64,000 nt of DNA from Polytrichum commune (lineage: Eukaryota; Streptophyta; Polytrichopsida; Polytrichales; Polytrichaceae): positions 32,818,527 to 32,882,526 of the forward strand of contig OX485808.1 in the NCBI GenBank assembly GCA_950295325.1. The letters are read 5' to 3'. A model generated the notes under the pieces. The model saw nothing but the letters and a program-made list of their open reading frames with translations. It was not told the origin of the DNA and did not search any database. Shown here in pieces: positions 41,759 through 64,000 of the stretch. Both the position numbers and the translations under genes were made by a program. Position 1 is the first letter of the stretch. The number at the start of each line of letters is the position of its first letter.

Positions 41759-41765
41759 TATAAAG
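41759..41765 (+). promoter_or_regulatory. TATA box of secreted-protein gene copy A
   Basis: TATAAAG lies 127 bases upstream of the first base of the ATG. The same sequence and position are kept in copy B. An ACGTGG motif is about 50 bases further upstream in both. Confidence 0.65.
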
Positions 41766-41891
41766 AGGGCCATGCATGGGGCTATTCTCTCACAGCAGCC
41801 AACAGTCTCCCAACTCTCTTAAGTTTTAACCTAGTTGTATATGCAAGACTGCCGGAACTCTCTCTCCTGATTCAATATCCAGCCCTTGGTC

Positions 41892-42723
41892 ATGGCGAAT
41901 GACAATGTGGCGAAGGGCCTGGTCCTGGTCTTCCTCTTGGTGGCCATGTACACTTCGGGAGCCCAAGGTTTCACCACCTACATTACCAACCAATCGTCCA
42001 GATCGATCGTTGCGACAACATCCTACCCAACTGGAGGAAAGTCAAAATTTGTAAACCGCGTCATTGCTCCCGGAACTCACCGTAAGTCTTCTCACCGATT
42101 GTTAAAGGAATCGTAAGCATAGTAGCATATTACCCGTGTATCTGATTGAGTGTAGCATTGATATTGGGGTGCTGTGTCAATGAGAGTGGCCTTCATGACT
42201 TGTGATCGATATGTGGTAGCAAGCATCGCATGCCATTGGTTTTCTCGGTGTCGTTCAATGATTGCAAGATTATTTACGTGGGTTCACACTATATTCAACC
42301 ATATGTAAAGTGTAATTTGATTTAGTGACATCATTAGACATGTGTCACACGTCACATGTACATCACAAATTCATGAATCTACCAAATTCACCTCGACGCG
42401 CTCCCTAATCATCGACATGTGTTGCAAAACCTACCTACCTAGTTTGTTCAAGTCCACTTAGGACTCACATACACCCAAAATCGGCAAGATGTGCTAAACT
42501 AATGTTCAATAATGCATATGGCGCATCTAGAGACATGGTTAGACAAGTGATTCTGGTCACATCACCCCTGGGTACGAACATGCGTTTTGTGATAGGCCAT
42601 TTGATTTTATTCATTATGTGTTTTTTTTCCACAAATCTTATTCTCTCAATGATATTATTGACCTTGTTGCAAAACACTCAAGAAATTGAATCTCATGGTA
42701 TTGTATTTGACATAGTTGACCTT
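41892..42723 (+). pseudogene. Secreted-protein gene family, copy A: exon 1 and part of the intron only
   Basis: Exon 1 (41892-42081) encodes 63 aa with a signal peptide (core GLVLVFLLVAMYTSGAQG) and the mature start FTTYITNQSSRS, then the donor GTAAGT. Intron sequence follows copy B up to about 42723 and then switches to unrelated DNA. No second exon is found before the next duplicated block at 42941. The promoter and exon 1 are almost identical to copy B, so truncation was recent. Unspliced, the frame would stop 12 codons past the donor. Only a signal peptide and a short mature stub could be made. Confidence 0.8.
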
Positions 42724-42940
42724 TGAGTTTGAGAAATAGCCGGTTGAAGATCAAGATTTCAAGAAATTTTTTTGGTGATTTCTGAACATTAATGGTAAAA
42801 TCATACCATTTCCAAGTCCAACGAGAATGCAGAAAGCAGGATGAGTGGCAGTTTTGCCTGGGTCTGCATCTACATCCTGGAGGGAGGTCACTTTTCATTC
42901 CTGGATGCAGATGCAGATCCAGGAACGAATGGGCTTGCTC

Positions 42941-44215
42941 TAATGCACATTCATCAATACTGTAAGATCTGCAAATCTCTGGTTTTTGGCATGCATCTGG
43001 CTGATGGGTAGGAATTTATTGGGCTTTATCGGTCGAGATCCTACTGTTTGCAAGTTCATCCGGTTACATGTTGACATCTTTCGGTTTATCTTAATTAATT
43101 TGAGGTATATTCTCTAAATTCCTCTAAAATGATTGGTAATTTTTTTGAAGTCTTGAATTTCGACAACATCGTTAGTAAATTCCACATGGGTCATTTGTCA
43201 ATGACAACCAAGTTTAATATCAATATTGGTTATATCATGTTTCTAAAGTGGTCACATGTAAGATAAGATGTTGCCGAATTTTATTTTCATTAAAGAATAC
43301 TCATAATCCAAGTTGTTGGGACCTCAATGCCACCTCCTAATTTGCCCACCTTGAGCACAATAATGAAACGTGTCATAGCTTGGTGCATAGCACTCCTCAT
43401 TATGGAGGATGGTGTTTGTAGTTTCACTTTTGAGAAGGTGACTAACCCAAATATCATCAAAGCCACGGCTAAATCATCATGTATTACTCACCTACCAAAT
43501 TAAAGCAATTGTACGGCCGATTAGGAGCCAAAAAATAGGTGTGTCTGATTAAGGAAGGTAACGGAATTAGCCTCATCTACCTTATGCTTCAACACCTTTG
43601 TGAGAAAAGATTCGTTGCAATACAAATTGCAAGTTAGACAACTAATTTATTGATTTCAGTGAAAGCATTTCATTACAAGGGAATCAAATGCATTGCAAGT
43701 TTTATGCGGTTACAGTTCTTATCTATCTGGTTATGTGCATCAACACCTTACGCAATCGGTCTTTGTAGTTGGACATCTGTATTTGAGTAGCAAGTACATG
43801 ACAAAGCTTGTAGGCAAGAATGGGCACCGTAAAGACAAGTTAATTAATGATGAGATTGGACTCTTCGCTCAAAACGTAGACACCAAATTCTAGGTTAACT
43901 ACCTAGATAACACGATTAGGAGGGTCTACGCGTTCGTGTTACGACGATTGGACAAAGTAGTAGAGGATATCTATTTTGACGTCATAAGTTTTGCATCTCA
44001 ACTTCGATTTCTAAGACATGGAATGACAATCTTCATGGTTGAGAGATGCTAATTGCAGCCGTGTGACCCAATTTGCATTTGGTCCAATGGTCAAAATAGT
44101 CGTTGGAGCTTGAAGTTGTCACAGGACCACCACAAACCACTATAACATATGTGTCCTAGGCAATTGATTTAAGTCACTAGAAAACTTGTCTTATGTAATC
44201 GGAAAAGTTGCAAAT
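42941..44215. repeat. Segmental duplication, unit 2 (paralogue of 39803-41345)
   Basis: Direct copy of unit 1 at an offset of about 2.87 kb over the right part. It lacks the Tourist-like MITE. It is followed at once by a block inverted relative to 41353-41605. Confidence 0.88.
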
Positions 44216-44309
44216 CTTCTGTCTTCCTTACGTAGCAGCCCCAGTAGTACTTACATCTACTAGCCTACAAGTTCAATGCAATCATCCCACATTTCTGGAG
44301 AACCAAAAT

Positions 44310-44665
44310 GCAAATCTCTCACTATGCTACAGTTGTAAAATATCTAATGACATAGAAGAAGTTTCTAGTGACGCATGTCAATTGCCTAGGACTCGTATGC
44401 TTGTAGTGCATACCAACAAAATTTCTTGTGCAATGATGCAAGAGAATTATAACTAAAGAGAAACCAGGTGTTATAACCTATATTTATAGCTTCCAAGTCC
44501 TATACAATCGTGTCACATTAATGAAAGAACAATAAATCTAGGGGATTGATATTTCCACACCTTTTTCGGCTAGATTCACACCTTTTTGCCGGTTCGGTTG
44601 CCGTGTGAGGGGATTGATATTTCCACACCTTTTTTTGGCTAGATTCACACCTTTTTGCCGGTTCG
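44310..44665. repeat. Inverted-repeat arm, partner at 49415-49720
   Basis: Reverse complement of the promoter-distal region of copies A and B (41353-41605 and 49551-49720), followed by two copies of a ~60-bp block ending ttgccggttcggtt. The other arm (49420-49545) also has two copies of the block, reading aaccgaaccggcaa. The two arms enclose the minisatellite, the MITE and the PIF/Harbinger element. Confidence 0.82.
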
Positions 44666-44869
44666 GTTAATTGGACATGTATATTTGAGTGGTATATGTG
44701 CAAGTCTTGAAGTTAGGTATGGACACCTATAAGTGTTGAGATATAATAAGATTACACTATGTACTTGAAGGTAGACGAGGATAATGTGGAAATCTCCATC
44801 CATGTAGAATCATCCAACTCATGGATTTGAGCATTGGAAGGTTGAGCATGTTAGCAATTTTGAATCAAG

Positions 44870-45141
44870 ACCAACTAGTCATTTAGTAAGTAGAGTAAGG
44901 CTAACCAACTAGTTATTTAGTAAGTAGCGTAAGGGTAACAAACTAGTTATTTAGTAAGTAGAGTAAGGGTAACCAACTAGTCATTTAGTAAGTAGAGTAA
45001 GGGTAACCAACTAGTCATTTAGTAAGTAGAGTAAGGGTAACCAACTAGTCATTTAGTAAGTAGAGTAAGGGTAACCAACTAGTCATTTAGTAAGTAGAGT
45101 AAGGGTAACCAACTAGTCATTTAGTAAGTAGAGTAAGGGTA
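44870..45141. repeat. 34-bp minisatellite, 8 units
   Basis: The unit runs from aaccaactag to gtaagggt (34 bases). The last five units are identical and the first three differ by one or two bases. The array ends exactly where the outer MITE begins. Confidence 0.92.
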
Positions 45142-45689
45142 ACCAACTACACTAAATATGATATTTAGTGTTAGATACACTAAATACAAACACTACACTA
45201 AATATCACTAACCCTATGAAAGTAAAAAACATTAAATGTAAACTCAAACACTAAATTTCATCTATGGTAATATGTGAAAGTTGCATGCACGAATTTAGTG
45301 TTTAGTAGGAAAGAGGTGGCAACAAGGAAGGCGATTGACTTTTTCTAGGAAAGAGGTGGCAACAAGGAAGGCGGCGGTGGCGCATTTATATCTAAGGCCC
45401 TCTTTACACTAGAAACGAGAAGTCGTGGAGAAAACCGGCCAAGGGCCATGGCTCATTCTTGAGAAGCCAAACTTTGAATTTGACGTCCTTTGGATATAGT
45501 GTAAAGTGAGAAGGGGCCACAAAATAATGTGCTGATTTTTTTAATATAATTCTAATATAGGGTTGATCGCAACTTCCACTCCACTACCTCTCTTTTCTAC
45601 CCCAAGACCGGTCTTTCTTTCTAGTTGTTGGCGGTTTCTTTTGCTTCTTTCTTTCTCGTTTTTGCCTTGTTTACTGAAATTTCAGCACT

Positions 45690-47105
45690 ATGAAGGAGAA
45701 GAGGAAGAAGCTTGTGGTGATGATGGTCTTGTATTGGTGTCTCTACATGATTACACAGCATGTTAACAACATGCAAGCTTTGATTTTACAAGGTGAGTGG
45801 ACGAATGTTGCAATTTTCAGCATTTGCCTTCAAAGTTTAGGGTTTAGAGAGAGAACTGTTTGGAGTTTTGAGAGGCCATCTGGCTTTGTAGACCGGTATT
45901 TGTTGGGTTCGTTTACGGAGAAGATGTTTAAGGAAAGGACTCGTGTCTCGCATGCTACATTCAGATTTTTATGTGAGAAATTAGGTCCGTTTTTGAAAAA
46001 ACAGCATACAAATTTCAGAAGACCAATTTCTGTAGAAGAGAGGGTTGCAATGTCTTTGGCTAGACTTGGTACAGGAGATGGGTTGCGTATGGTTGGAGAG
46101 GTATATGGGGTGGCGGAATGTATAATTTCAAGAATTGTGAGAGAATTTTGTAAAATGGTGAGACTTCATTTGCAAAAGATTTTTATTCAAGTTCCAAATG
46201 AAAACAAATTTAGGGTTTTAGCGAAAGAGTTTGAGAGATTGCATAACATACCTTACATAATAGGAGCCATAGACGGTTCACACATTCCGGTGCTAGCTCC
46301 AGTTATTGGTGGAGAAGATTATTACTGTCGCAAATCTTTTCATTCAGCTTTGTTGCAAGGAATTGTTGATACCAATTGCATATTTTGGGATTATGAATTC
46401 GGCTGGGCTGGAAGCTTGCATGATTGGACTGTTTTTCAACAAACCAAAGTAGGAAGAGCTTGTATAGAGGGAAAATTTCTACCGTACAAGTTAATTGGAG
46501 ATGCGGCATATCCGGTTCGCCCTTGGATGTATTGTCCATTTAAGGGTTGTAATGATGGACTAGAATCTTACAAGGCACATTGGAATTTTATCCAATCTTC
46601 AACCCGAATGTGTGTGGAGCGTGCGTTTGGAATTTTGAAGTGTAGATGGAGAATTATACAAAAAAGAACAGATGTTCCTTTACGATCAATGGCAGATATT
46701 GTATCAACTTGTATTGTTTTGCATAATTTATCCATCATAACAAATGACAAGTTTGATGCAATATGGATTGAAGAAGCAGAGGTGGAATTACATAAACGGG
46801 TTGAAGAGGGCACAGTGAAGGGAGGACAAGTCTTACGAGGAGAGCAAGCATCCATTGATGAGGTAAAAATATGCATTTTGAAATCTGGTACTACAAGAAC
46901 ATTTCAAAATTTTGAGCAAGAAGAAATTGATGCTGAAGAAGAAACTTTTTTAATCAAACAAAATGATAAAGATGCTGATTTATTGAAAGAATCTACCATT
47001 GCTCATGAATCCATTGCCAAAATATTGTGGCAATACAATTTGTCAAAGGACTCGACCATTCAATTTTCAGAATCAAGTAGTGATTCTGATGTTATGGAAG
47101 AATAG
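45690..47105 (+). CDS. PIF/Harbinger transposase (DDE_Tnp_4 type), 471 aa
   Basis: A single uninterrupted frame. An N-terminal helix-turn-helix-like region (ERVAMSLARLGTGDGLRMVG, then GVAECIISRIVREF) lies at ~115-160. The catalytic core has D195 in GAIDGSH, D271 in LIGDAAYP and E310 in CVERAFGILKCRWRI, so the DDE triad is complete. YYCRKSFHSALLQGIVD and HNLSIITND are typical family motifs. The acidic C-terminal tail is low complexity. The stop abuts the stop of the convergent Myb-like gene. The first Met may not be the real start, because the first ~40 residues are hydrophobic and unlike the family. A shorter start downstream is possible. Confidence 0.93.
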   Translation: MKEKRKKLVVMMVLYWCLYMITQHVNNMQALILQGEWTNVAIFSICLQSLGFRERTVWSFERPSGFVDRYLLGSFTEKMFKERTRVSHATFRFLCEKLGPFLKKQHTNFRRPISVEERVAMSLARLGTGDGLRMVGEVYGVAECIISRIVREFCKMVRLHLQKIFIQVPNENKFRVLAKEFERLHNIPYIIGAIDGSHIPVLAPVIGGEDYYCRKSFHSALLQGIVDTNCIFWDYEFGWAGSLHDWTVFQQTKVGRACIEGKFLPYKLIGDAAYPVRPWMYCPFKGCNDGLESYKAHWNFIQSSTRMCVERAFGILKCRWRIIQKRTDVPLRSMADIVSTCIVLHNLSIITNDKFDAIWIEEAEVELHKRVEEGTVKGGQVLRGEQASIDEVKICILKSGTTRTFQNFEQEEIDAEEETFLIKQNDKDADLLKESTIAHESIAKILWQYNLSKDSTIQFSESSSDSDVMEE

Positions 47106-48508
47106 CTACAATTTTTCTAGAATTGCTGCCATATGCCTATCCATGTTCTTCAATAAAGCTGTGCTTTCTTGAAAAGTTGTAAGAAAGCTAGAAGAATTTG
47201 AGACAACCTTTTCCAAAATGATTTCCAAATTCTCTTGGAATTTTTTCTTTTTCTTCTCTTGTTTTGGAGTAACCTCACGATCTTGCAAATCTGATGGTGT
47301 TTTGTCTTCATCGTTTTCATCTTCACCTTCAGTGGCACTTGCTGGAATTTGGTTCTTTACACATGCATGTGTAGAATTCCAGACATCCAGTTGGTCAAAC
47401 CATTTACAGTCTTGATGCCTATCCGAACCAGAAATCTCATTGGCCCTCTTGTCATTTTTGTACTCTGCGTAAATGGTTTTGTACTTCTTCTTGCATGATT
47501 CCCATGAGCGGTCAAAGCCACGAATGACCGCCACCATCCTTGCTTGCAATTTTAACCATGTATTAATCCCTGAAATTTTACATTATAAGTCATTAGTGCA
47601 ATTATATACAAGCATATGATAGTCAATACGTCCTCAAAATGTCAAAAAAACAACCGAAAGGACCTCATTTGAGGCCCTCAAGAATGCAGACAACATAGGT
47701 AGTGACCAGAAAAACCCATAATGTTCGTCAAGACACGTGCATGACTCATTTCTGCCGGGTATAAACCCCCCACCCCCCCCCCCCCCCGGTTGAGAGTTGG
47801 CCGTAGAGCCTAGAAAATGCATTTGGCAGGTAAGGACCAATAGACTTGGGAAGAAAGCTAGGTAGGCCAATTCCTGGTTGAAGCTTTGAAAAATTATGAA
47901 AACCATTCATGTGTACAAAAAGTTATAGAACCAAAAAATAAAACACATATACAAACCTTGTTTTTTTGCACATCTTGAAAATTCTTCTTCTATCTCTCCC
48001 CGAATTGATATCAAGGTTTCAACCTCGTAATCTCGCCACTTTCGACTTGCATTTTTTTCTTCCGAATCTGAACCAGCCAAATTCACCACTTCTTTTGTTG
48101 CCTTCTTTGTTGTGATCTCCATTTTCTTCTTCTTTGCTGGAGCATTTTTTTTCCTCCTTTTGGTGGTCGTCCTCTCTTCTTTACTACAGGTACATCTTCT
48201 CCATTTAGTGCCTTTACTGCAGCCCGGATTGCCTCCTCCTCCTTCATATTCATCAAGTAATTTCTTGCATTTGAACTCGGTGTCACTTCCTCACTTGATG
48301 GTTGCAAATCTGAACCATTACAAGGAGGCATTCCAAGAGGCATAAAATATCTAGGACTACCAGTACCAAAATGATCAAAATTTGAAACATGCATTTGAGG
48401 AGAAATGGGCTGAAATTGGGGTTGAGAGTAGTTCATCCAAGGCGAATTTTGACTCCATGCTTGTCCTTGAGATTGAGAGAATTCTCCATCTTGGGAGGAG
48501 CCTTCCAT
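47106..48508 (-). pseudogene. PIF/Harbinger second gene, Myb/SANT-like DNA-binding protein, one frameshift
   Basis: Reads MEGSSQDGEFSQSQGQAW from 48508 through a Gln/Pro/Ser-rich region to KKRGRPPKGGKK (AT-hook-like). The frame is lost at an 8-base A run (plus-strand T, 48145-48152) and resumes one base over with KKKMEITTKKATK. The SANT-like region (SRKWRDYEVETLISIRGEIE) is interrupted by an intron, 47956-47570 (donor GTTTGT, acceptor CAG). It continues GINTWLKLQARMVAVIRGFD and SWESCKKKYKTIYAEYKNDK. A Lys-rich coiled region ends the protein. In this superfamily the Myb-like protein brings the transposase to the ends. The frameshift lies in a homopolymer and may be a sequencing error. Confidence 0.82.
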
Positions 48509-48832
48509 TGTAATAAACACAATGCAAAAAATATTTGGGCAAAATAATATCGATGGTGCAAAATAATTTGAGCAAAAATAAATAGCAAATAATTGGGCAA
48601 AAAAACATGCAAAAACAAGCAAATCTATACTTCTTTCTGGTCACACATGAGGAAGAAGAAAAAGATGACTTCGAATGATCAAGGAGCTGCCTTTAAGGAC
48701 GAAAATCGGGAATGAATAGTAATAGCTGTTGGGTAGAAAACGGGTAAACAAATGGCCGTCAGTAAAAGTGGCCGTTCTGAAAAATTATTAAAAAAATGAA
48801 AATGATTGGCTGTGAGAATTTCGGCCAAACGG

Positions 48833-48892
48833 CCCCCCGGATTTTGCGTCAGGCCCACCTCTCGAGGTGGGCTTGACGAAAAATCCGGGGGT
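48833..48892. repeat. Subterminal hairpin of the PIF/Harbinger element
   Basis: Arms 48833-48861 and 48864-48892 are near-perfect complements (GCCCACCTC / GAGGTGGGC next to a 2-base loop, and CCCCCGGATTTT / AAAATCCGGGGG at the base). It could be a transposase or Myb-protein binding structure, which is inference. Confidence 0.75.
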
Positions 48893-49084
48893 CTTGGAAA
48901 ATGTGTCTTCTTGCTGCCACCAAGGACAAAAGTGTTGTCCATGTCATTTTCTCCTCGTTTTGTCCTTTGGGCTGAAAATTTCGGGTGTAAAGTGACCTGG
49001 AATGGTCTTCTCGATTTCTACGCATCCCATTGGCTGAAATTTCTTTTCTCACGGCCCCTCGCCTCTAGTGTAAAGAGGGCCTAA

Positions 49085-49414
49085 CACTAATTATCAAAGA
49101 ATTGAAAATTAGTGTTGAGCATAGTAGGGTGGTAAAACACTAAATCTAATCAAACACTAAATATCATATTTAGTGTAGTTATATAATAAGTAGGCCTAGA
49201 CACTGGGCCCGCCTAGCCACTAGGCCCGACACCACCCTAAATCCGGCCTCCCCAAAAAAGACATGAGGCCCACGGCCCCACCCCGCCTTGGTGGCAAGCA
49301 CCACCCCCGCCCCCCACCCCACCGCCACCTAGGATCATTGAGGCCCTTGGATGGGCCTTGGTGGATCAACAGTCCGGATGCACCACGAAGAATCTCATAT
49401 ATAGTGCCTCAGTG
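49085..49414. other. Remainder of outer MITE and GC-rich spacer
   Basis: 49085-49180 is the right part of the outer MITE. 49190-49400 is GC-rich (ggcccgcctagccactagg type) without a frame or motif. Confidence 0.5.
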
Positions 49415-49720
49415 ACACGGTAACCGAACCGGCAAAAAGGTGTGAATCTAGCCAAAAAGGTGTGGAAATATCAATCCCTTGACAAAGCAACCGAACCGGC
49501 AAAAAGGTGTGAATCTAGCCAAAAAATGTGCGGAAATATCAATCCCCTAGATTTATTGTTCTTTCATTAATGTGACACGATTGTGTAAGACTTGGAAGCT
49601 ATAAATATAGGTTATAACACCTGGTTTCTCTTTAGTTATAATTCTCTTGCATCATTGCACACGAAATTTTGTTGGTATGCACTACAAGCATATGAGTCCT
49701 AGGGAATTGACATGCGTCAC
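49415..49720. repeat. Inverted-repeat arm, partner at 44310-44665
   Basis: Carries two copies of the block aaccgaaccggcaaaaaggt, then the agatttattgttcttt sequence shared with copy A at 41353. It leads directly into the copy B promoter. Confidence 0.82.
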
Positions 49721-49907
49721 TAGACATAGAAGTGCATAGAAGAAATTCTATGTCACTAGACATAGTGGTCACGATGGGCCACTAGCAGTGCAGATGATTT
49801 CACTTTTTGTCCACATTGATGGTGATAGTCTTATGGATAGATTGGTAAATCAGAGACGTGGGGAAATGTGTCACTCATAGGGGGGCAAGACCAGGCCTTC
49901 AGAAGAG

Positions 49908-49914
49908 TATAAAG
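49908..49914 (+). promoter_or_regulatory. TATA box of secreted-protein gene copy B
   Basis: TATAAAG lies 135 bases upstream of the ATG at 50043, in the same setting as in copy A. Transcription would start near 49940, leaving a leader of about 100 bases. Confidence 0.68.
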
Positions 49915-50042
49915 AGGGCCATGCATGGGGCTATTCTCTCACAGCAGCCAACAGTCTCCCAGCTCTCTTCAGTTTTAACCTAGTTGTATATGCAAGACTG
50001 CCGGAACTCTCTCTCTCCTGATTCAATCTCCAGCACTTGGTC

Positions 50043-51429
50043 ATGGCGAATAACAATTTGGCGAAGGGCCTGGTCCTGGTCTTCCTCTTGGTGGCCATGT
50101 ACACTTCGGGAGCCCAAGGTTTCACCACCTACATTACCAACCAATCGTCCAGATCGATCGTTGCGACAACATCCTACCCAACTGGAGGAAAGTCAAAATT
50201 TGTAAACCGCGTCATTGCTCCCGGAACTCACCGTAAGTCTTCTCACCGATTGTTAAAGGAATCGTAAGCATAGTAGCATATTACCCGTGTATCTGATTGA
50301 GTGTAGCATTGATATTGGGGTGCTGTGTCAATGAGAGTGGCCTTCATGACTTGTGATCGATATGTGGTAGCAAGCATCGCATGCCATTGGTTTTCTCGGT
50401 GTCGTTCAATGATTGCAAGATTATTTACGTGGGTTCACACTATATTCAACCATATGTAAAGTGTAATTTGATTTAGTGACATCATTAGACATGTGTCACA
50501 CGTCACATGTACATCACAAATTTATGAATCTACCAAATTCACCTCGACGCGCTCCCTAATCATCGACATGTGTTGCAAAACCTACCTACCTAGTTTGTTC
50601 AAGTCCACTTAGGACTCACATACACCCAAAATCGGCAAGATGTGCTAAACTGATGTTCAATAATGCATATGGCGCATCTAGAGACATGGTTAGACAAGTG
50701 ATTTTGGTCACATCACCCCTGGGTAGGAACATGCGTTTTGTGATAGGCCATTTGATTTTATTCATTATGTGTTTTTTTTCCACAAATCTTATTCTCTCAA
50801 TGATATTATTGACCTTGTTGCAAAACACTCAAGAAATTGAATCTCATGGTATTGAATTTGACATAGTTGACCTTTGTATTTTCCACGGGCAAAAAGAAAT
50901 AAAGAATAGGAAAATTATTTACGCATGGGTGTAAGGATATAATAATATTTTTCAAAAGCCTTCTTAATTAGGAATATATCCAAGTATATTATACTTTACT
51001 ATACCTTATATGATAAATTGGTGCTTTTCTTAACAAAATTTCATGCTTTATTATAATCTCATCAAAATTTGTGTCAGATTCTCATTTTGCTAATGACGGG
51101 CTACTTGTTATATAGTTGTTGCTGCCCAAGGCCCATCACATCACAAACATTGTGATTCCACCTTGTGATTCTCTATGACATTAACATCATGCAATGTGTT
51201 GCTTGTTGTGCATGTAGAGTCTGATCAATATGGCACTCCATTGGGGATTCATGTGGAGCTCTGGGTGGATGGTGCCCACCAACATAACAGTGTCAATATT
51301 TTATCTGATTATAGCCTCGTGGCCTTCGACCATGGTGCCGGCTCGACGGGTGTTGATATCTACTACGCTACATATGGAACCTTGACTGAGAAGAGCGGCT
51401 CTCTGTTGGTAACCATCTACTTGAATTGA
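50043..51429 (+). CDS. Small secreted Cys-free protein, family copy B (intact, 133 aa, 2 exons)
   Basis: Exon 1 is 50043-50232 and exon 2 is 51218-51429 (TGA). The intron has GTAAGT and TGTAG ends, and the codon CAG is split 1/2. The signal peptide is MANNNLAKGLVLVFLLVAM to about residue 26, and the mature protein starts FTTYITNQSSRSIVATTSYP. Exon 2 encodes GIHVELWVDGAHQHNSVNIL and SLVAFDHGAGSTGVDIYY, ending LLVTIYLN. Alternating hydrophobic residues suggest a beta-sandwich. There is no cysteine after the signal peptide, unlike most small secreted plant defence proteins. I do not recognise the family. Sequence context shows recent duplication: copy A upstream in direct order, copy C downstream inverted. 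This is the only copy in the window with both exons in frame. Confidence 0.78.
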
Positions 51430-53287
51430 TTATGTAGCAATCGCCTCTTCGTTGATAACCATCAACGACATCATTAGCCCAATTTATAACTGGTGTTGCA
51501 AGTTTATTTAATGGTTGTGATACTATGGAAATAACACTTGGCATTCCAATATAGAGACTACCATTTCTTGGCGGAAATGGAGAATCTATATTAATTGTAC
51601 GTCTGTAGTTGTATACGATAGTTGTGGATAAGAATAACAGATGTAACTTAGTTTGATGCTCTATGTCAAAATATGAACTAATCCTCCATCTGTACTACAC
51701 TTTGCATATTTAGTCATGCGCAAAGTCTTCAATAAAACTTGGTTCATAGACTACCGACATGGTTGTTGTGTAGTTGTTGTTCATGTATGTCCGTGTAACA
51801 TGGACCATTATTGATACATGTTGATTAGAACTAGGATAATGATGGTCTAGATTGCGTTTAAAGTAAACGAATAGAGTTCATTATTTTTGTGTTATGAGTT
51901 TTGCAATTTTGCATTGACATAAAAGATGCTTTTACTTTGGAAAGAACCTGACACAACTTGGCATGGTGGGGAGGTATATAATTAAAGGTTTCTCAAGCAA
52001 GAGTAGAATCCTCTTTAAATCTTATGATGTTATAATATGATGTTAGAATCTTATTGGAGTCTGGAGATCCCGAGGTTGGATGCCTGGGGAGTGCAATGGG
52101 TTACAAATCTAAGGCCCTACGAAAGCAATAGAGATTGAATTTTTTTCAAAAATTGAGATTAAATCTTAAATTCCCCCAAAATCTAGTGTACAAACATGCT
52201 CTAGATCTGTTCAGTAAAAACATTTGAATGTAAACGTAGTTGATTTGATAGTTTTTTAAAATAATCTTCTATTGAGCAAATCTACCAATTTTGGACATAA
52301 ACAAAATCTTCTTCATCAAATAGCTTCATCATTCATGTTCAAAAACAATTAATTTGCCAAGTTGATGATATTTTTGCATTGCAAATACTCGGAGCGATCA
52401 CACCCCTTTACGTATTTGTAACCGCGAGGGATAATGGGTTGTTTAATGAGGGGATATTTATACACCTCTCAATATTTTTTCCCTCCCTTTTTGTAGATAA
52501 AAAGCTACTTTGACGTATTCTCTAGCACCCTATATTTATTTTTAATTGTTTAGAGAGGCTAATTTTTGGTACGATATGTTTTTTAATAAATCGTACAAGT
52601 ACCAAATAATGGATGGAATACTCTAGCATTGCGAAACCAACAATGTCAGCAAAACAATTTCCATACCATTCAAATTGTCATTCATTTGGTTTCAATTAGT
52701 AATATCAATCCTAAACCATTCAAAGTACCATTCAAAACACAACCAATAGCACGTAGGACTAGCTAAAGGGTTACCAATAAATATGGAGATAACAAAATAT
52801 ACAAGTTGAAACAGACAAGCATCTAGGGAGGTCCCACATGTTTAGCACCGTTGCATATCCAACGGCCGTTGAGGAGCACCAACACATTCCTTCCCCTAAC
52901 ATTATATTCGTTAATCGGAGACGTTGGATAGTTTCAAGATAAAATACACCCATCGTTTGGGTTGCAAATATTTTGAGTATACGGAACAATTGGAACATCA
53001 AGAACATGACGGTTTACAAATTCACACGTGGAGAATATTCACATTACTAAAAATAACAAGTCTTCAAATCATAATCAAAACATGAACCACGGGTGGAGAA
53101 AATAATCGAATCCCAAAAGCAAATGGTTTTATGTCACTATAAAGTTTAGGGTGCACATCCCAAATGTATGTATAAATTTGAATATCATAAATTTGAATAT
53201 AATAGCTACAATTAAACCAAATCTATAAATTGCCCCTATGTTTTGCCATTAATTCCAACCTATATTAAGTTTCCATGTCTCCATCTT
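50043..53287 (+). repeat. Left arm of a large palindrome (partner 60892-64000)
   Basis: Copy B, its intron and about 1.85 kb of 3' flank are matched in reverse on the right arm, ending near 53287/60892. Shared landmarks include the sequence after the stop (ctcttcgttgataacca), ctccccaggcatcc and the block around 52771-53007. A further piece (53395-53560) matches 59590-59745 in reverse, so the left arm has lost about 1 kb of element sequence. The arm as far as shown contains one 78-codon frame (53007-52771, minus) also kept at 61200-61448 (+), of unknown meaning. Confidence 0.9.
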
Positions 53288-53595
53288 CCGCTTCATACCC
53301 ATTCTCGATGTCATTTTCCGCAGCTGCAATACGTGCCAAGTTGTCTTTGGCAAAATCTATATGTTTTTGGGGGATGGTCATTATTTCCGATTTGGAACCC
53401 TTGCGTAGGAAGAGACTCTACAACAATTATGCAGTTGAGGACACCATCGCTATAAGTAGTGAGGACGAGGACGACATGGAGTTTGCCAAATGGCTTAGGT
53501 CGGATCCTCCTTCTCTTACAGCTTTTGCCAGCATGGTGAGGGTGAAACCTGTAGATTTCAACTACCTCCTCTTGTTCCTGGGGATGACCGTATAG
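53288..53595 (+). pseudogene. Fragment of the acidic element protein
   Basis: Encodes YAVEDTIAISSEDEDDMEF and LRSDPPSLTAFASMVRVKP, a diverged copy of part of the frame at 59590-59740 (minus), YAVEETIAISSEDEDDMEL. The upstream part of that gene is deleted here. No start or end is preserved. Confidence 0.7.
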
Positions 53596-54300
53596 TAGTG
53601 ACTTAGAGCGTCGTCCGGATTATGATGACCTAACTACCTAATTTCCTCGTTGTGCTTTATTATCATCTCGTGGTTTTCCTTTCTTTTACATCCGGTGAGT
53701 AGCCAAGTAGTCGTCTTCAATGAGCCAAGTTTCCTTTCATTCCAAAAATTTTCCCTCTCTTGCAAGTCTTATCTTTAGTCTCCTAATTGTTAGTTTCCAC
53801 CACCAGAACTCCCTCCGTTGAAACATGTGTTGATAGTATTTTAACAATAATGAAGTGATTGTTAAATAATCTTTTCCCATGTAAAGGAGATTTCTTCTTC
53901 ACATGTGTAGTAATGCCTCTACTAATCTGCCATTTTCTTATCGACTCTTGAGGAGGCATCCTTGAGTTTATTAATTCAACTTAGTCAGTGATGATCGGAT
54001 GTTCTTTAGAATTCCTTTACTTTGTATCTCTAATGATGTAACTTTTCATGCCGTCGAAGGAACCTCTCATCTTGATATCTCTCCAAGTGGTTCTTTCTAT
54101 TTAATCTTATTCGTAATCTTCTCTTCATGTTGTAAAGGTCTTCATGTGCCGTAATTGTCTTCCCACTTCTTTTGGATTTTTAATTCTAGTAGGCTAAGTA
54201 CCTTCTTTGAATGACTAAGTAAGGGGGGGGGGGCACACCCGGGGTGTTCATGCCGGAAACGGTGCCGGGACCGTTGATTAGGGCCTAACTGACACCGCAC
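53596..54300. other. Palindrome spacer, no gene recognised
   Basis: AT-rich then GC-rich from about 54220, where an 11-base G run precedes cacacccgggg. No motif is recognised. Confidence 0.4.
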
Positions 54301-54998
54301 ATGGGGGTGCCAGAATGGAGGGTGGAGGAAGGTGTCAGGGCTTGTCGGCATGTACTTCCTGCCGGAAGTAGTGACATGGCTGCTATTTGCACCGCTTTCC
54401 CACCGCTGGTGAATACCAACGTTTTGATGGAGTCCCTGGATGATCCAACTGTTCTCCGCAGACGGGCGACGAAAGTCATCCGCTCCGACCTCGGGGGGGG
54501 GGGGGGTAGTGTGTTGAAAAGTTAAGGATATAGGTGTGAACAACCACTATTTTATAGGGGGGTATTACTTTCAATTTTTTTTTTCACATGCTATCATTAT
54601 GTAAATTTCTACTTTGGGTTAATAGAAAAATGGCTTGCATTACTTATAATTCCAAATTACCTATTATTCCATACCCTATAGTACTTTAAAGATGTCCAGT
54701 GCCATTTTTGATACCCTATATTACTCTTAAGTCCATTTATAAATTTTAGCCCCCATGTTTTTAAAATACCCTATCATTTGTTCGCACGTATATTGCTACT
54801 CCAACCAATGACTACCCCCCCCAAGGCTCCGACAGATGGCGAGCACTGGTGGGGAGCGTTTGCGAGCTCGGTCCGGGGTTCGCTTGCTACAGGCGGGGTT
54901 TGTCGGAGGGTGTGCGTGGAGTTGTTGGCGGCGAGTCGATGCGGCATGCGTGGAGCGGTCTTCTCCGGCGACCCGAATGGGCTTATGGTTTGCAGCAG
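54301..54998 (+). pseudogene. GC-rich reading frame interrupted by the hAT-like MITE
   Basis: From the ATG at 54301 the frame runs MGVPEWRVEEGVRACRH through PTVLRRRATKVIRSD to the target site GCTCCGAC. After the element and the second GCTCCGAC the frame resumes in phase with RWRALVGSVCELGPGF and ends WAYGLQQ at a good donor (GTGAGC at 54999). With the 336-bp element and one 8-bp duplicate set aside, no stop separates the two halves. Base composition is much more GC-rich than its surroundings. I do not recognise the protein. The 3' exons are not identified. Confidence 0.5.
54490..54825. mobile_element. hAT-like MITE with G-tract termini, copy 2 (336 bp), TSD GCTCCGAC
   Basis: Starts CTCGGGGGGG and ends CCCCCCCAAG. 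A perfect 8-bp duplication GCTCCGAC lies at 54482-54489 and 54826-54833. The interior matches copy 1 (15644-15988) with few differences, from agttaaggatatagg to ctccaaccaatgactacc. No gene is present. Confidence 0.93.
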
Positions 54999-55124
54999 GT
55001 GAGCATTTTCCGCGCCATGAAACTCTCGGCGTGCTGGAATGTCGGACACACATACAGAGGGAAAGACAGAAAGATAACAAGGGGGATGAGTGTTGAGTGC
55101 GCATGTGTTTTTGATTTCTTTGTT

Positions 55125-55820
55125 CAGTTGTCAATGTCGTGAATGGGTGCTGCCACACTCACCGACCTTGGGGGTCGTGGGTGTCCGCCTGACTCCTGCT
55201 CTGAACGTTCGCCTTACCCCTTGTGCGGCACCAGCCACCGCCATGCATAGCAAATTCAGTCCATTCTCGGCTGTTACGTCCATAGCAAGCCACTGTGTGC
55301 TGGGGTTCAAATTGAAGCAAAAATCCGAAAACTTACAATGTTTGTTGGAGTTGAAATTGAAGCAAGAACCCGAATTCTCGCCGACTGGTTTGTTGCTGTC
55401 CCGGATTGGGCTGCAGTTGGGGCGGAGCTATGTTGGCGTGGAGTGCCCTGGTCCATAATAAACGGGTTCAGTCTTCGTTGAGTCGTCAATGTTGTGAATG
55501 GGTGGTGCCACACTCACCGACCTTGGTGGTCCTGGGTGGCTGCGTGGGTCATGTTGTCAACGTGCGGCCTTAACCTTGTGCAGCACCAGTCACCGATGCA
55601 CGGAACATATTCATTCCACTCTTAGCCGATACCTCCATAGCAAGCCAGTGTCTACTAGAGTTGAAATTCACGGAAAAAGCCGAAAATTGCCATTGTCTGC
55701 TGGAATTGAAATTGAAGCACACAACCAAAAACTCACCGAATGCCTTGTTGTTGGCGCAGATTGGGCTGGAGTTGGGGCGAAGCTTTGTTGGCGGGGAGTG
55801 CCCTAGTCCATAATAAACGA
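55125..55820. repeat. Tandem duplication, two ~345 bp units
   Basis: Units 55125-55459 and about 55480-55820 share cacactcaccgacctt, ccatagcaagcca, ggagttgaaattgaagc and ccataataaac in the same order. They are clearly diverged. Reading frames are not conserved between units, so this is not a protein repeat. Confidence 0.85.
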
Positions 55821-55837
55821 AAATGAATTGAACCTAC

Positions 55838-56650
55838 TGCACAACCTTTGCTGTCTTCATATTTTTGAACATACCCAGCATCGCAATCGAGCTCCGGGTC
55901 AACTTGGATCGCTGTCACTAATTCCCCAGGTTCCTTGCCATCCAGCGGAATGCTTTGAACACCATTCCACTTGAGTAGGATAGAGGATAGTGGAATTTCA
56001 TGTGTGGAAATAAAATTGTTGGCAAGGCGCACGACCGCTGTGATCGTGGCCTCTGTGATTTTTTAAAAGTCATGGCAGGCGTGTCCAGGCTAGGTCATTC
56101 ACATATCCTTAACATTCAATTGGTCTTGCACATGTGTGTTGGACTTCCATATGGTGTGCAAGAGTTGGCAAGAGGGTTTCAGTGTTGGTTTTGGACTCTT
56201 TGCAAATTAAATAGGTGTCGACATGTGTAGGTGCCCATTATTGGTTACTAAGTGCCCGCAGTGCTATGATCCATTCATGTTTATGAAGGAGTCTGCAAGC
56301 TATTTTGGCACCATTTCGTCGTTCATGTTTTTGTTCGGACGCACGATTGTCGTCCTTATTGTTGATGTTCTTCCAGGCAGTACTGATTGGATGTTTGTGC
56401 ACTTGGGTGTCGACACTGCTTGGCAAAGGTGTGCTCTATGGTTTGAAGTTTGGCGCCCGATACTTTGCGCACAATATTTGAATTCAAGGAGAAATTTCTC
56501 TGGGCCAGCCGATCCATCCAAAACCAACAGTCGGATCTCCTCTACCGCAGGTTCATTTCCCAAACTCACTTTTTTTGATGTGTCACTGGCAGGTGGAGGT
56601 CCCATTCCATACATAGGTTCCATATATTGGCAAGGGCTCAATGTTGTGAA
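55838..56650 (-). pseudogene. Possible retroelement-type coding remnants
   Basis: On the minus strand, 56060-55838 reads LANNFISTHEIPLSSILLKW and PGELVTAIQVDPELDCDAGY. Around 56600-56400 it reads NEPAVEEIRLLVLDGSAGPE then KFLLEFKYCAQS, reminiscent of plant Gag-like proteins (…DGS-x-PEKFL). Frames are broken and no protease, RT or integrase motif was seen. The 239-codon + strand frame over the same DNA looks like its shadow. Confidence 0.3.
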
Positions 56651-56948
56651 CATATTTACAAATCGAGATGTGTTGTTCTGCTCCAATATATTTCCGCACA
56701 TTCCAAGGCTCTTTGTTATTCTCTATTCTTTGTGGCTTGTTGAAACTTGGATTGCTATGATTTATGTGATGAGGGAAGTCCATGTGCATTTATGTTCTGC
56801 ACAATTTTTTGGAGACTCTGATTATACTCGGGGGCCCAATACCATTTCAATATGCATTCAATTGTTGTGTGCATCTTTGTGCGTATGCTACTGCAGAAAT
56901 TTGGATTGTTCATTTCCCATGTGCGTGGACTGGGTTGTTTGACGAATT

Positions 56949-57749
56949 ATGGATGAGATTGTGCATTTGGGGGAGAGCTCACAGTGTCCATCCACCCAAG
57001 TGCACATTGACGTGGATTGTGACTTTGGGTCTGAGTACGTGGATGACCAAGATCCCGTTTCTTTACCGCCAACGGCTGGAAGAGGGGTTGTGCATGGTAG
57101 ACGTGGATCAAATACTGCAAGATCATCATCGGCTCCATCGCAATCACAACCTGCACATCATCACAAGGTTCGAGGACCGAACTGGACCGAGGCGGAAATG
57201 CTTGTCCTTATCTGTCAGAAACGAATTGAGTGGGACGGGAGGCATAATTGCAATCAACCGTCTCTTGCCAAGTTTGTGTATGGAACCACGGCATGGAAGT
57301 TGGTCTTGGCGGGGTGCATGGGTGTGGTGGGTTTCCGGGCTAGGGATACCGACCAAATCACCAACAAGTGGGATGGCTTGATTAAAGATTACAAGAAACG
57401 TAAGGAGTACATAGAAGGGTCAAGTTCAGCCAATTGGTGGGGAATGAATAGGGAGGAGAAGAAACTGTTGTCCAAAACTAGGAAAATGTCGCTAGAGTTC
57501 AGTGAGTCCATGTACATCGAGATGGAAGGGTTTGTTGGAAAGAGAAAAAAATTTGGCCGTGCAACGGATGTGGTGGACTCCGACCGCGTGGCTCCGACAA
57601 CGGCGAGAGATTTTGGTCGCTCCCCTCTTTCTCCACGTGCATGTTCTCTTGGTGGCTTGGGAAGCCCCATTCCTAGCGCCACGACCGCATCCGGGTCCCC
57701 GACTCGTGGAACACCAGGAGACGACACGCCTTGTCGCAACCCTTGCTAG
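56949..57749 (+). CDS. Trihelix-type (Myb/SANT-like) DNA-binding protein, 266 aa
   Basis: A single frame from ATGGATGAG to TAG. The acidic N-terminus (VDCDFGSEYVDDQDP) is followed by a Ser/Gln/His linker. A trihelix-like domain sits at ~75-165: GPNWTEAEMLVLICQKRIEW, a second helix near WKLVLAGCMGVVGF, then TDQITNKWDGLIKDYKKRKE. The Trp spacing and the KW..L..DYKK third helix fit the Myb_DNA-bind_4 group. The C-terminus is Ser/Pro/Gly-rich. It probably acts in the nucleus. In some plants such proteins are transposon-derived, and the position inside a repeat-filled palindrome spacer makes that possible here. An upstream exon cannot be excluded. Confidence 0.68.
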   Translation: MDEIVHLGESSQCPSTQVHIDVDCDFGSEYVDDQDPVSLPPTAGRGVVHGRRGSNTARSSSAPSQSQPAHHHKVRGPNWTEAEMLVLICQKRIEWDGRHNCNQPSLAKFVYGTTAWKLVLAGCMGVVGFRARDTDQITNKWDGLIKDYKKRKEYIEGSSSANWWGMNREEKKLLSKTRKMSLEFSESMYIEMEGFVGKRKKFGRATDVVDSDRVAPTTARDFGRSPLSPRACSLGGLGSPIPSATTASGSPTRGTPGDDTPCRNPC

Positions 57750-58545
57750 CCCCCCTTGACAATCTTGCCAATTTTCAATTCTAGCAAAGGTTACGAGCGC
57801 TAACCATTCGCATTCCGCCATGCTAATGGTTAGCTCCTCCTACCCCGGACCATATAGTTCATAGGAGGAAACCAACCCTCCTACTTTGCTTTCGGGACTC
57901 ACCCCTTGTGAGCCCAAAATTGATGCCCACATTGGTTGTTAACACTTGTAAAACATTACAAGTGGTGTTTTGGTGATTTATGATTATTCACAAAAATATA
58001 AAAAGAGTGAAGCTTGAAGAAAACTTAGTTTGAAGCATTAGGCTTTTGTGGAGTGGATTTAAGTAGGAGAAGGACAAACCTTGGTAAAGTGTGGTAGGTA
58101 GAAAGCCAAGGTTAGTTAAATGTTTGAATTAGGATCCTTGTTGATCATTTGAGGGAGGAAGACTTAGGAGATAAGATTAGAGCCTACAAAGTAGGAGGAA
58201 ATCTCGAGGGCTTATCGTGAGCCTTGAGGGTGCTCACCCCCTCAAACTCACTATATAATCCCTCATTCTTCCCTCACTCATCCTCTCTTTCCTTCGTGCT
58301 CCTTGGCACTCCACGTGTTATAAGTGTGGGTGCGTGGGAAGCAAGATAGGAGCACGTGTGTGTGCATGGATGTAAGGTTAGGGGCCAAGGCTAGTTGGCC
58401 TTGAAGAGGGCTTGACCTCTTGTTAGTAATAGTTGGGCGTGAATGATTTAAAGTTCAATTTATGGCTTTGTTTGAATACTTGGATTTACATTGATTAGCC
58501 TTATACTTATGCGGATGTGCAAAGTCTCTTATTGGAGCATTTAGT
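57750..58545. other. 3' flank of trihelix gene, no gene recognised
   Basis: Contains aacacttgtaaaacattacaag (an imperfect palindrome) near 57942 and otherwise unremarkable sequence. No clear LTR ends were found. Confidence 0.4.
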
Positions 58546-58549
58546 TTTG

Positions 58550-58809
58550 TTGGACTTCATATGAATTTTTGAGAGCCAAAAAACCGAGACTATGTCCAAA
58601 CTTCCAAAAACTAGTGAAAAAGTGTAGGTTTAAAGGGAACAGCGTAGAATTGCGACCATATACTTTGTGGCAGTAGAAATATTATTGCATATTCATGTAG
58701 AGGACTTCATTACCTATCCATGGATACCAAGAACTCATTTTTTGGACTTCATATGAATTTTTGAGAGCCAAAAAACCGAGACTATGTCCAAACTTCCAAA
58801 AACTAGTGA
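58550..58809. repeat. Direct repeats of 67 bp, about 190 bp apart
   Basis: 58550-58616 and 58742-58809 are essentially identical (tggacttcatatgaattt ... caaaaactagtga). Confidence 0.9.
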
Positions 58810-58981
58810 CACACTCTTATAGTTTTTGACTTATGATGTTTAGACTTAAAGTGTTGGATTCATTAGGTAGGAAGGGGTGTGTGTAACTTTTGAATGTATT
58901 GGTGATTGACCATTGAGGTTGAACTTAGTAATGGAATGTGAAGGCCTGTAAAGGAGAGGCCACCATAAGTTACACAAGTAT

Positions 58982-59176
58982 TTGTTAATACTTAAACTTA
59001 TGTGCTTCATGGAATCAACAAGCGAAGGCTCGTGCAGTAGTGTGAAATCAACGGCGAGGACTCGATTCACACGAGGGATATCTTTGAAGGCATGCGTGGC
59101 CAAAGCGGCTGGGTGGACTTTAGAGAAATACAAGGATGTGACATTACCCGAGATTAAGGAGTGTAAGAAGACATAG
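58982..59176 (+). CDS. Short frame resembling a tyrosine-recombinase C-terminus (tentative)
   Basis: A 64-codon frame with STARTRFTRGISLKACVAK then AAGWTLEKYKD. The spacing resembles the H-x2-R … AA-x-W end of DIRS-type or Crypton tyrosine recombinases. The usual HxxR histidine is absent, and no upstream part is seen. It could be chance. Confidence 0.2.
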   Translation: MLILKLMCFMESTSEGSCSSVKSTARTRFTRGISLKACVAKAAGWTLEKYKDVTLPEIKECKKT

Positions 59177-60762
59177 TATAGACTTGGCTAAGTTGTGTAT
59201 ATTCCAACGATAGATTGGAATCATACATTGTGTTACAAAGAGAGAAATCTCTACATGCCATTATAAACTTCTCCATTCGGGCTAGGACTAAATTGAAGGG
59301 TGGAGGCTTTTTGGTGACAGGAGGGAAGCCGGCGGGCAAATGAGGGAATGCACTCGAGGGAACCATCACCAATCCCTGCGCCAGCATGCCCTGAATCACT
59401 TGCGTGATCAGTTCCGCTTGGGAGGGAGGTTGGGCCATCGCCCTTTGCCGCTCCTGCTCCAAAAGGAGAGCCCTCAACTCCGCGACTTCGTTGCGGACCG
59501 AGGGCTCATCCGCGGCAGCCTTCTCCAATCGGACATGCTGCTCCTCGTCCCGGAGCATTTTCGTGTTGGCCTCCTCCGCGGTGAGGACTTCCGGTTTCAC
59601 CCTCACATTCCCGGCGAACGCTGTAGGGGAGGCAGGATCCGACCTTAGCCTCTTCGCGAGCTCCATGTCGTCCTCGTCCTCGGAGCTTATGGCGATCGTC
59701 TCCTCCACCGCATAGTCGCTGTACAATTTCTTCCCCTTCAGCCTTCGCCGATCCCTGAAGGTGGCCGTCGCGTCCCTCGAGTACATCTCCTTCGCGTCGT
59801 CCACCGTGAGCACGGGCACCAGCCTGCTCTGCGGCGTGGCAGCCCGCATTGCCTTCTTCCGTTGAGGGGCTTCGGATTCTTGAGTGAATCATGTTGCCCC
59901 TTCCTCCACCTCCCCCTCCACTTTTTCTGCTTCCTCCTCCTCCTCCTCCTCCCCCTCCTCTGCAACCTCGCCACCTGCTCCCATTGACTGATTGCCCGGA
60001 TGCAACCCGATGAGCGGTTCTGGCAATTCAACGGAGGGCCGCATGGCAAATTCTTCCGGGTTGATTCGCCTCGCCATATCAAGCGGATTCTCACCCCCCT
60101 GGAGGATCTCGCCGATGTAGGATCCCGGTATCCAGTCGAGGATGTCTATTCTCGTAGCCAGAGACTTCTGGGTCCTGTAGAATTGAACATTGGCATCCTC
60201 CACATAGAAGTAGATGTTCAACCCAGACATCTGCACAATCCATATCAATAGCGTTAGTATCACCAATGAAGAATAGAGAAAAATGACAACCAATACAAAA
60301 CTAGTTTGGGTCGCTCGACCCAAACCAAGCACATTAACCCTTCAGGGTAGTTGCTTACCATTGCAGCGAAGACCGGTTTCGAGCCCCCGAAGACGTTGAA
60401 GATGCAGTCCCCCCTCTTCGTGAGGGTCCTCATCATCCGCAGGTAGAAATCCATCCGCAGCTCATCCGCGGGGTAGTTGGCGTATTTCGCCTCGTCGTAC
60501 AAACTCCTGCTGGTATCCAACCCGTCTGGGACCTGGAAAAGCTTTTCCATCCGGGCTATAGGATGGTTTGGCACCTTCAGCAGCTCAGCTTTGTACACGA
60601 AGTACAAGCACAGCACATTGACGATCTTCGTCTTCTTGTCTTTCAAAGTGTTGTACGCCCCCTCCGCCGGTGCAGCAACGTAGTGGGATTTCGAGACGGC
60701 GTACTCTGGCTGCAATTTCCGCACAATCTCGTAGACCTGCTCCGCCCTCCTGTCCTCAACAA
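59154..60762 (-). pseudogene. Multi-copy element gene: methyltransferase-like plus acidic coiled-coil protein, one TGA
   Basis: Minus-strand exon a (about 60762-60359) encodes EQVYEIVRKLQPEYAVSKSH, KIVNVLCLYFVYKAELLKVP, NYPADELRMDFYLRMMRTL and TKRGDCIFNVFGGSKPVFAA. Intron 60358-60237 has GTAAGC and TGCAG ends. Exon b starts MSGLNIYFYVEDANVQFYRT, passes a Glu-rich stretch and meets TGA at 59889-59891. The same frame then continues AATPQSRLVPVLTVDDAKEM, AISSEDEDDMELAKRLRSDP and a coiled-coil-like region (VAELRALLLEQERQRAMAQ) to 59154. The segment IFNVFGGSKPVFAA faintly resembles motif I of DNA methyltransferases, but no catalytic motif was found. A partial second copy sits in the left palindrome arm, so this is a repeated element gene. 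I do not recognise it. Confidence 0.55.
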
Positions 60763-60891
60763 TTAATTATGCCAAAATACCACGGTTATAGGATAACATT
60801 GGGTGTAATTCCAAATGTTTTTTGTCCCTCACTACTCACAACTTACCGCTCATTGCTCACCGCTCACATGATAGCACCCCCCAAGATGAAG

Positions 60892-63800
60892 ACAGGGAAA
60901 CATAACATAGGTTGGAATTAATGACAAAACATAGGGACACTTTATAGACTTGGTTTAATTGCAACTATTTTATTCAAATTTATAATATTAAAATTTATAC
61001 ATACGTTTGGGATGTGCCATCCAATTCCATAAGACCCTTATATATGGGATGTGCACCCTAAACTTTATAATGACATAAAACCATTTGCTTTTGGGATTCA
61101 ATTCTTTTCTCCACGTGTAGTTCATGTTTTGATTATGATTTGAAGACTTGTTATTTTTAGTAGTGTGAATAATCTCCACGTGCGAATTTGTAAACCGTCA
61201 TGTTCACCGTCATGATCCTGATGTTCCCAATGTTCCGTATGCTCACAATACTGGCATCCCAAACTATGAGCGTATTTTATTTTGAGATTGTCCAACGTCT
61301 CCGATTAACAAACATAGTGTTAGGGGAAGGAATGTGTTGGTGCTCCCCAACGGCCATTGGATATGCAACGGTGCTAAACATGTGGGACCTCGCTAGATAC
61401 TTGTTTATTTCAACTTGTATATTTTGTTATCTCCATATTTATTGGTAACCCTTTAGCTAGTCCTATGTGCTATTGGTTGAGTTTTGAATGGTACTTTGAA
61501 TGGTTTAGGATTGGTATTATGGTTTATTGAAACCAAATGAATGACAATTTGAGTGGTATGGAAATTGTTTTGCTGACATTGTTGGTTTTGCAATGCTATA
61601 GTATTCCATCCATTATTTTGGTACTTGTACGATCTATTCAAAAAAAATATTGTGCCAAAAATCAGCCTCTCTAAACAATTAAAAATAAATATAGGGTGCT
61701 AGAGAATACGTCTAAGTAGCTTTTTATTTACAAATAGGGAGGGAAAATCTATTGAGAGGTGTATAAATATCCTCTCATTAAACACCCCATTATCCCGCGC
61801 AGTTACAAAATGTAAAGGGGTGTGATTGCTCCAAGTATTTGCAATGCAAAAAGACCAACTTGGAAAATTACTTCTTCTTCTTTTGTAACATGATTGATAA
61901 AGCTATTGATGAAGGAGATTTCGTTTATGTCCAAAATTGGTAGATTTGCTCAATAGAAGATTATTTTTAGAAACTATCAAATCAACTATGTTTACACTTA
62001 AACAATTTTAGTGATAGATCTAGAGCATTTTTGTACACTAGATTTTTTGGAAGAATTCAAGATTTAATATCAATTTTTGACAAAAATCTCAATCTCTATT
62101 GCTTTCGTAGGGCCTTAAGTTAGATTTGTAACCCATTGCACTCCCCAGGCATCCAACCTCGAGGTCACCAGACTCCACTAAGATTTTAATATCATATTAT
62201 AAGATCATAAGATTTAAAGAGGATTCTACTCTTGCTTGGGAAACCTTTATATACCTCCCCACCATGCCGAGTTGTCTCAAGTTCTTTCCAAAGTAAAAGC
62301 ATATTTTATGTCAATGCAAAATTGCAAAACTCATAACACAAAAATAATGAACTCTATTCATTTGCTTTAAACGCAATGTAGACCATCATTATCCTAGTTC
62401 TAATCAACATGTGTCAATAATGGTCCATGTTACAATCACATACATAAACAACAACTGCACAACAACCATGTAGGTAGTCTGTGAACCAAGTTTTATTGAA
62501 GACTTTGTGCATGACTAGATATGCAAAGTGTAGTACAGATGGAGGATTAGTTCATATTTTGACATAGAGCATCAAACTAAGTTACATCTGTTATTATGAT
62601 CCACAGCTATGGTATACAACTACAAACGTACGATTAATATAGATTCTCCATTTCCGCCAAGAAATGGTAGTCTCTATATTGGAATGCCAACTGTTGTTTT
62701 CATAGTATTACAACGATTAAATAAACATGCAACACCAGTTATAAACTGGGTTAATCATGTCGTTGATGGTTATCAACGAAGAGGCGATTGCTACATAATC
62801 AATTCAAGTAGATGGTTACCAACGGAGAGCCGTCTTTCTGAGTCAAGGTTCCATATGCAGCGTAGTAGATATCAACACCCGTCGAGCCGGCACCATGGTC
62901 AAAGGCCACTAGGCTATAATCAGATAAAATATTGACATTGTTATGCTGGTGGGCACCATCTACCCAGAGCTCCACATGAATCAGCAAATGGAGTGCCATA
63001 TTGATCGGACTCTACATCCACAACAAGCAACACATCACATGATGTTAATGTCACAGAGAATCACAAGGTGGAATCACAATGTTTGTGATGTGTTGGGCCC
63101 AGGGCGGCAACATCTATATAACAAGTAGCCCGTCATTAGCAAAATGAGAATCTGACACAATTTTTGATGAGTCTATAGAAAAGCATGAAAATTTATCAAG
63201 AAGACCACCAATTTATTAAATAAGGTATAGTAAGGTATAATATACTTGGATATATTCCTATCTAAGAGGGTTTTTGAAAAATATTATTATATCCTTAAAC
63301 CCATGCATAAATAATTTTCCTATTCTTCTTTCCTTTTTGCCCGTGGAAAATACAGAGGTCAACTATGTCAAATACAATTATACCACGAGATTCAACTTCT
63401 TGAGTGCTTTGCAACAAGGTCAATAATATCATTGAGAGAATAAGATTTGTCAAAAAAATAAAACATAATGAATAAAATCAAATTGCCTATCACAAAACGC
63501 ATGTTGCTACCCCGGGGTGAGGTGACCAGAAACACTTGTCCAACCATGTCTCTAGATGCGCCATGTGCATTATTGAACATATATCAATCTAGCACATCTT
63601 GTACACTTTACATATGGTTGAATATGGTATGAACCCACGTAAATGATCTTGCAATCGTTGAACGACAACGAGAAAAACCAATGGCATGCGACGGTTGCTA
63701 CCACATATCGATCACAAGTCATGAAGGCCACTCTCATTGACACAGCACCCCAATATCAATGCTACACTCAATCAGATACATGGGCAATATGCTACTGTGC

Positions 63801-64000
63801 TTATGATTCCTTTAACAATCGGTGAGAAGACTTACGGTGAGTTCCGGGAGCGATGATGCGGTTGACAAAATTTGACTTTCCTCCAGTTGCGTAGGATGTC
63901 GTCGCAACGATCGATCTGGATGATTGGTTGGTAATGTAGGTGGTGAAACCTTGGGCTCCCGAAGTGTACATGGCCACCAAGAGGAGGACCAGGACCAGGC
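60892..64000 (-). repeat. Right arm of the large palindrome (partner 50043-53287)
   Basis: Reverse-oriented, collinear with the left arm from 60892 to the window end, so the arm may extend further. Relative to the left arm it has lost about 160 bases of the gene intron (left-arm 50462-50636) and carries many single-base differences. Confidence 0.9.
62799..64000 (-). pseudogene. Small secreted Cys-free protein family, copy C: frameshifted exon 2, exon 1 cut by window end
   Basis: Exon 1 (64000-63836, start codon outside the window) is open and reads GLVLVLLLVAMYTSGAQG then FTTYITNQSSRSIVATTSYA. The donor GTAAG and acceptor GTAG (63013-63012) are conserved. Exon 2 (63011-62799) is 213 bases instead of 212. 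One extra base after GGCACTCCATT shifts the frame and gives a stop about 23 codons into the exon. The rest of exon 2 (IHVELWVDGAHQHNNVNILS) is preserved in the shifted frame, so the lesion is recent or a sequencing error. Substitutions relative to copy B include P to A and K to N in exon 1. Confidence 0.75.

Follow-up and report, generated by a model that had tools for sequence, protein, structure and literature searches.

Does this moss locus, with its three copies of one small predicted gene, still hold a working copy, and what kind of protein would that copy make? The window, by which we mean the whole stretch of 64,000 nucleotides that was analysed, comes from Polytrichum commune (contig OX485808.1, positions 32,818,527 to 32,882,526), and the copies, here called A, B, and C, lie in its right-hand part. 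A preliminary description, made by reading the letters, presented them as a recently duplicated family of cysteine-free secreted proteins. Extracellular proteins of non-seed land plants are thinly described, and copy B, if expressed, would be a secreted protein from such a plant without a family in the libraries searched.

With slightly better than even confidence, we regard copy B as what looks like a real gene, lineage-restricted and probably ordinary, for a predicted secreted protein in a course of local birth and death. The case for a gene draws on an intact reading frame, canonical splice sites, a start resembling a signal peptide, the depletion of gaps in the exons, the dN/dS ratio, an older relic elsewhere in the genome, the restriction of the family to three copies genome-wide, and the lack of a family match.

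Structure of the Three Copies

The three copies have in common about 280 bp of promoter, a predicted signal peptide, a splice donor that reads GTAAGT, and the intron. In copy B, exon 1 (50043–50232, + strand) runs from the ATG through the predicted signal peptide and 37 residues into the mature part, up to the donor site. It is followed by a GT-AG intron of 985 bp (50233–51217, +), predicted from the open frame across it, and by exon 2 (51218–51429, +), which includes the stop codon at 51427–51429. Ahead of exon 1, 49766–50042 (+) holds the proximal promoter and 5′ leader, which A and C also have, with a TATAAA-like motif near 49908.

Copy B had been called intact and its mature protein free of cysteine, and both statements hold: translation across 50232/51218 yields an uninterrupted preprotein of 133 aa with zero cysteine. 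The mature part is computed at about 107 aa, 11.5 kDa, and pI 6.2, with one N-glycosylation sequon. Residues 9–19 form a hydrophobic stretch, GLVLVFLLVAM (hydropathy 3.1), and the N-terminus is likely a signal peptide, as was first supposed.

Copy A consists of exon 1 (41892–42081, +) and a truncated intron (42082–42725, +), and if read unspliced it reaches a stop at 74 aa. Only two bases separate its exon 1 from that of B, and the encoded protein is 97% identical; for C the corresponding protein identity to B is 92%, and exon 1 of C differs by about 5% from both A and B.

Copy C is read on the minus strand as 64025–63836 joined to 63011–62799. The window contains 63836–64000 of its exon 1 together with its exon 2 (62799–63011); the ATG lies 25 bp past the window end, and the first 25 coding bases (64001–64025) were read from the adjoining DNA. 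The one-base frameshift that had been reported for C was found again: exon 2 carries one extra T near 62988, at the position of B 51240, which leads to a premature stop and a product of 86 aa.

Duplication History

The duplicated unit spans about 38238 to 53287 and comprises, in order, an upstream block, the promoter, exon 1, the intron, exon 2, and a downstream block. The part that holds A (38238–42725, +) includes the upstream block, the promoter, exon 1, and some of the intron; the part that holds B (42941–53287, +) is broken up by a transposon, described below. A further, inverted occurrence (60883–68633) carries C; 60883–64000 (−) of it falls in the window.

Recent local duplication, both direct and inverted, was the central claim of the preliminary description, and the similarities bear it out. 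Blocks of 300 nt in A and B (41858/50009) are 99% identical, and inverted blocks of 327 nt (41917/63674), 96% identical, tie A and B to C; both are far beyond chance. The view that A had lost its exon 2 at a breakpoint needs some adjustment. No exon 2 was found between A and B, so that part stands, but the breakpoint itself has a different character. Within the intron, A and B cease to be similar at 42725, equivalent to 50876 in B; from 42941, equivalent to 39802, the sequence is upstream block once more. Copy A is thus, as the alignments read, the truncated end of a partial tandem duplication that repeats 39802–42725, rather than a gene from which an exon was removed.

Divergence between A and B is about 1% for exon 1 and the intron, 2.2% for the promoter, and 3.8% for the upstream block (929 bp); either conversion between the two copies or a further event would have homogenised the gene part.

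A repeat of about 330 bp, with 95–98% identity, is present at 54493–54822, 15647–15976, and 69664–69994 (the last being past the window), near both sides of the C unit. It is possibly a short non-autonomous transposon.

The Transposon Upstream of Copy B

A PIF/Harbinger DNA transposon of about 5 kb (44541–49548, no strand assigned) has inserted about 0.5 kb upstream of B. Its ends are GGGGATTGATATTTCC and the reverse complement of that sequence, and the terminal sequence is repeated in the genome. It carries a transposase open frame of 475 aa (45678–47105, +) that matches DDE_Tnp_4 (PF13359, E 1.4e-26), and on the opposite strand a Myb/SANT-like frame that falls just under the family cut-off. 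Eight tandem units of 34 bp (97%) occupy 44870–45149 within the element. Although this neighbour is a PIF/Harbinger element with a DDE_4-type transposase, the secreted-protein gene stands apart from it, for A and C are without the element.

The insertion site is uninterrupted in both A and C, and the right flank of the element, TAG, fits that empty site. On the left, the flank duplicates the right one in inverted orientation, which leaves no readable direct repeat of the kind expected for a 3-bp target-site duplication. This stretch (44216–44540, −) is inverted promoter DNA and not the original flank, which would suggest that insertion or repair took an aberrant course, as though it had folded back.

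The shared promoter of the preliminary description needs narrowing. The proximal 280 bp or so is common to all three copies, and this promoter and leader, with the TATA-like motif, still stand in front of B; farther upstream B carries the Harbinger element with its inverted promoter duplicate.

Copy Number and an Older Relic

Further copies beyond position 64000 and genome-wide had been suggested as a check. In the genome of 408 Mb, exon DNA occurs in these three copies alone, and the only addition is an older relic of exon 1 on another chromosome (C3). There the protein-level match is weak (E 0.0076), and the DNA is 81% identical over 59 bp, including the donor site. Because a stop and a probable frame shift interrupt the relic, and because no exon 2 was found within 4–6 kb, we interpret it as a dead older copy. 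The motif SKFxNRxIAPGT survives in it; the 12 codons concerned show 4 synonymous and 2 conservative changes, a sign of past coding constraint.

The copy number also bears on whether the three copies might be carried, or used as coding sequence, by a transposable element. In favour of this, a Harbinger element adjoins B, and dispersed repeats lie on both flanks of the gene. Those flanking repeats, however, gave over a thousand first-look candidates, whereas the exon DNA is confined to this locus; A and C do without the Harbinger element; and no transposon family in the Pfam search matches the B protein. The preliminary description had itself set transposon homology against its reading, and none was found for the coding part. 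We consider an origin as cargo exceedingly improbable and reject a transposon-encoded protein, an idea already largely refuted by the low copy number of the exons.

Evidence for Coding and Selection

The alignment of B with C has a one-base gap in 402 exon bases, compared with 179 gap columns in the intron. The dN/dS ratio between the two is 0.37 by NG86 and 0.57 by YN00. Of 20 substitutions, 11 are nonsynonymous against 14.6 expected (P 0.058), in a comparison where one of the sequences is a broken copy. Together these values suggest, though they do not prove, that B is a coding gene. We infer the splicing of B, its signal peptide, and its past coding selection from the DNA alone.

Against B as a working gene, one must set the weakness of that selection signal and the fact that the relic is dead, as are two of the three copies. 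On a less favourable reading the family is dying, and B is a non-functional remnant whose frame is open through youth and not through use. In favour of this reading speak the breaks in A, in C, and in the relic, a dN/dS that departs little from the neutral value, and a transposon 0.5 kb upstream. Yet the promoter, donor, and acceptor of B are intact, its exons are depleted in gaps, and past constraint is seen when it is compared with the relic. We judge a remnant unlikely, albeit deserving of serious attention, and hold to B as a putative gene.

Searches for Relatives

That the protein could not be placed in a family was borne out for the libraries searched. Pfam, NCBIfam, and PHROGs, all searched at E 10, returned zero usable matches for the B protein, and the sole PDB match at the same threshold was dihydroorotate dehydrogenase (E 1.5), which we take as chance. 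A tblastn search of plasmids with B gave chance matches alone (E 1 or worse), and scans of prokaryote genomes and viral contigs, which reach close relatives only, were empty. Copy B is thus without a homologue in the known families searched, this genome being the plant genome covered. A structural model of exon 2 by itself was all strand and of low confidence (mean pLDDT 47), too poor for a fold search, and the beta-rich character proposed in the preliminary description stays a prediction.

Acquisition of the gene from a fungus or bacterium might be proposed, as the family is narrow in this genome and microbial genes have entered non-seed plants (PMC12454661). The prokaryote species collection, in which the scan reaches close relatives only, the viral contigs, and the plasmids yielded no relative, and we think such an origin very improbable.

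A known family could also be present in a form too divergent for sequence searches to reach, for example a beta-sandwich such as S1/SPH (PF05938). The two are alike in size, in predicted secretion, in a short I-x-N start, and in several suspected strands, and S1/SPH proteins are plentiful in this genome. A profile built from five S1 members, all from this genome, nevertheless placed B among its own shuffles (rank 64 of 837 scored; rank 171 for the mature part), and profile–profile comparison returned a probability of 0.8%. S1 proteins have conserved cysteines, also visible in the members from this genome, whereas B has none of these and no cysteine at all; it differs further in having an intron in its coding part. 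With no Pfam match at E 10 and profile scores within the shuffles, membership in S1/SPH was rejected, and descent from any known family past the reach of these searches seems to us decidedly unlikely.

The Putative Protein and Its Setting

If copy B is the gene that we take it to be, its preprotein of 133 aa would enter the secretory pathway, and a cysteine-free mature protein of about 107 aa and 11.5 kDa would be released. The locus itself would have arisen through a partial tandem duplication, whose product A ends within the intron, and through a segmental duplication in inverted orientation, whose product C has since acquired a frameshift; a PIF/Harbinger element would have inserted upstream of B, while an older dead copy persisted on another chromosome. 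Read in this way, the locus catches gene birth and death in the act, from the partial tandem copy and the frameshifted inverted copy to the upstream transposon and the distant older relic.

The B locus is most likely unplaced but of a known kind. Its closest parallels are the orphan genes for small secreted proteins that lie in local birth-and-death clusters, which it resembles in small size, a predicted signal peptide, the lack of an identified family, and a few tandem or inverted copies, some of them broken; it differs from them in having no cysteine and one intact copy only. Lineage-restricted genes for secreted proteins are usually guessed to act in binding or defence outside the cell. Tentatively, and with rather less than even likelihood, the mature B protein might be a small binding or defence-type protein outside the cell, with turnover in copy number; the part in biotic interaction that the preliminary description proposed is likewise conjecture. 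We think it improbable that it represents a previously undescribed fold or extracellular activity, from a family that is specific to the plant lineage, is maintained by biotic conflict, and has one working gene left in this genome.

Assembly and Neighbouring Genes

The assembly has seven large contigs of 42–78 Mb, read as seven chromosomes, several of which begin with CCCTAAA telomere repeats; seven is also the number of chromosomes proposed for the ancestor of mosses (PMC13120521). The plastid contig, of 146,561 bp, carries rbcL, whose sequence looks more like that of bryophytes, lycophytes, or ferns than that of seed plants. The first 300 bases of a 47-kb contig (L039, G000:C10:1-300) are 71% G+C, unlike plant chromosomes, and this contig may be bacterial.

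The genome holds about 43 S1/SPH (PF05938) matches above the cut-off, some of them clustered near 20.65 Mb on C5 and near 40.77 Mb on C6. Within the window, two ordinary neighbouring genes lie to the left of the family: one (19964–20329, +) has a weak PDCD2_C match (E 0.0014) that is below the cut-off, and the other (13436–13879, −) encodes an O-methyltransferase dimerisation domain (PF08100, E 3.8e-11).
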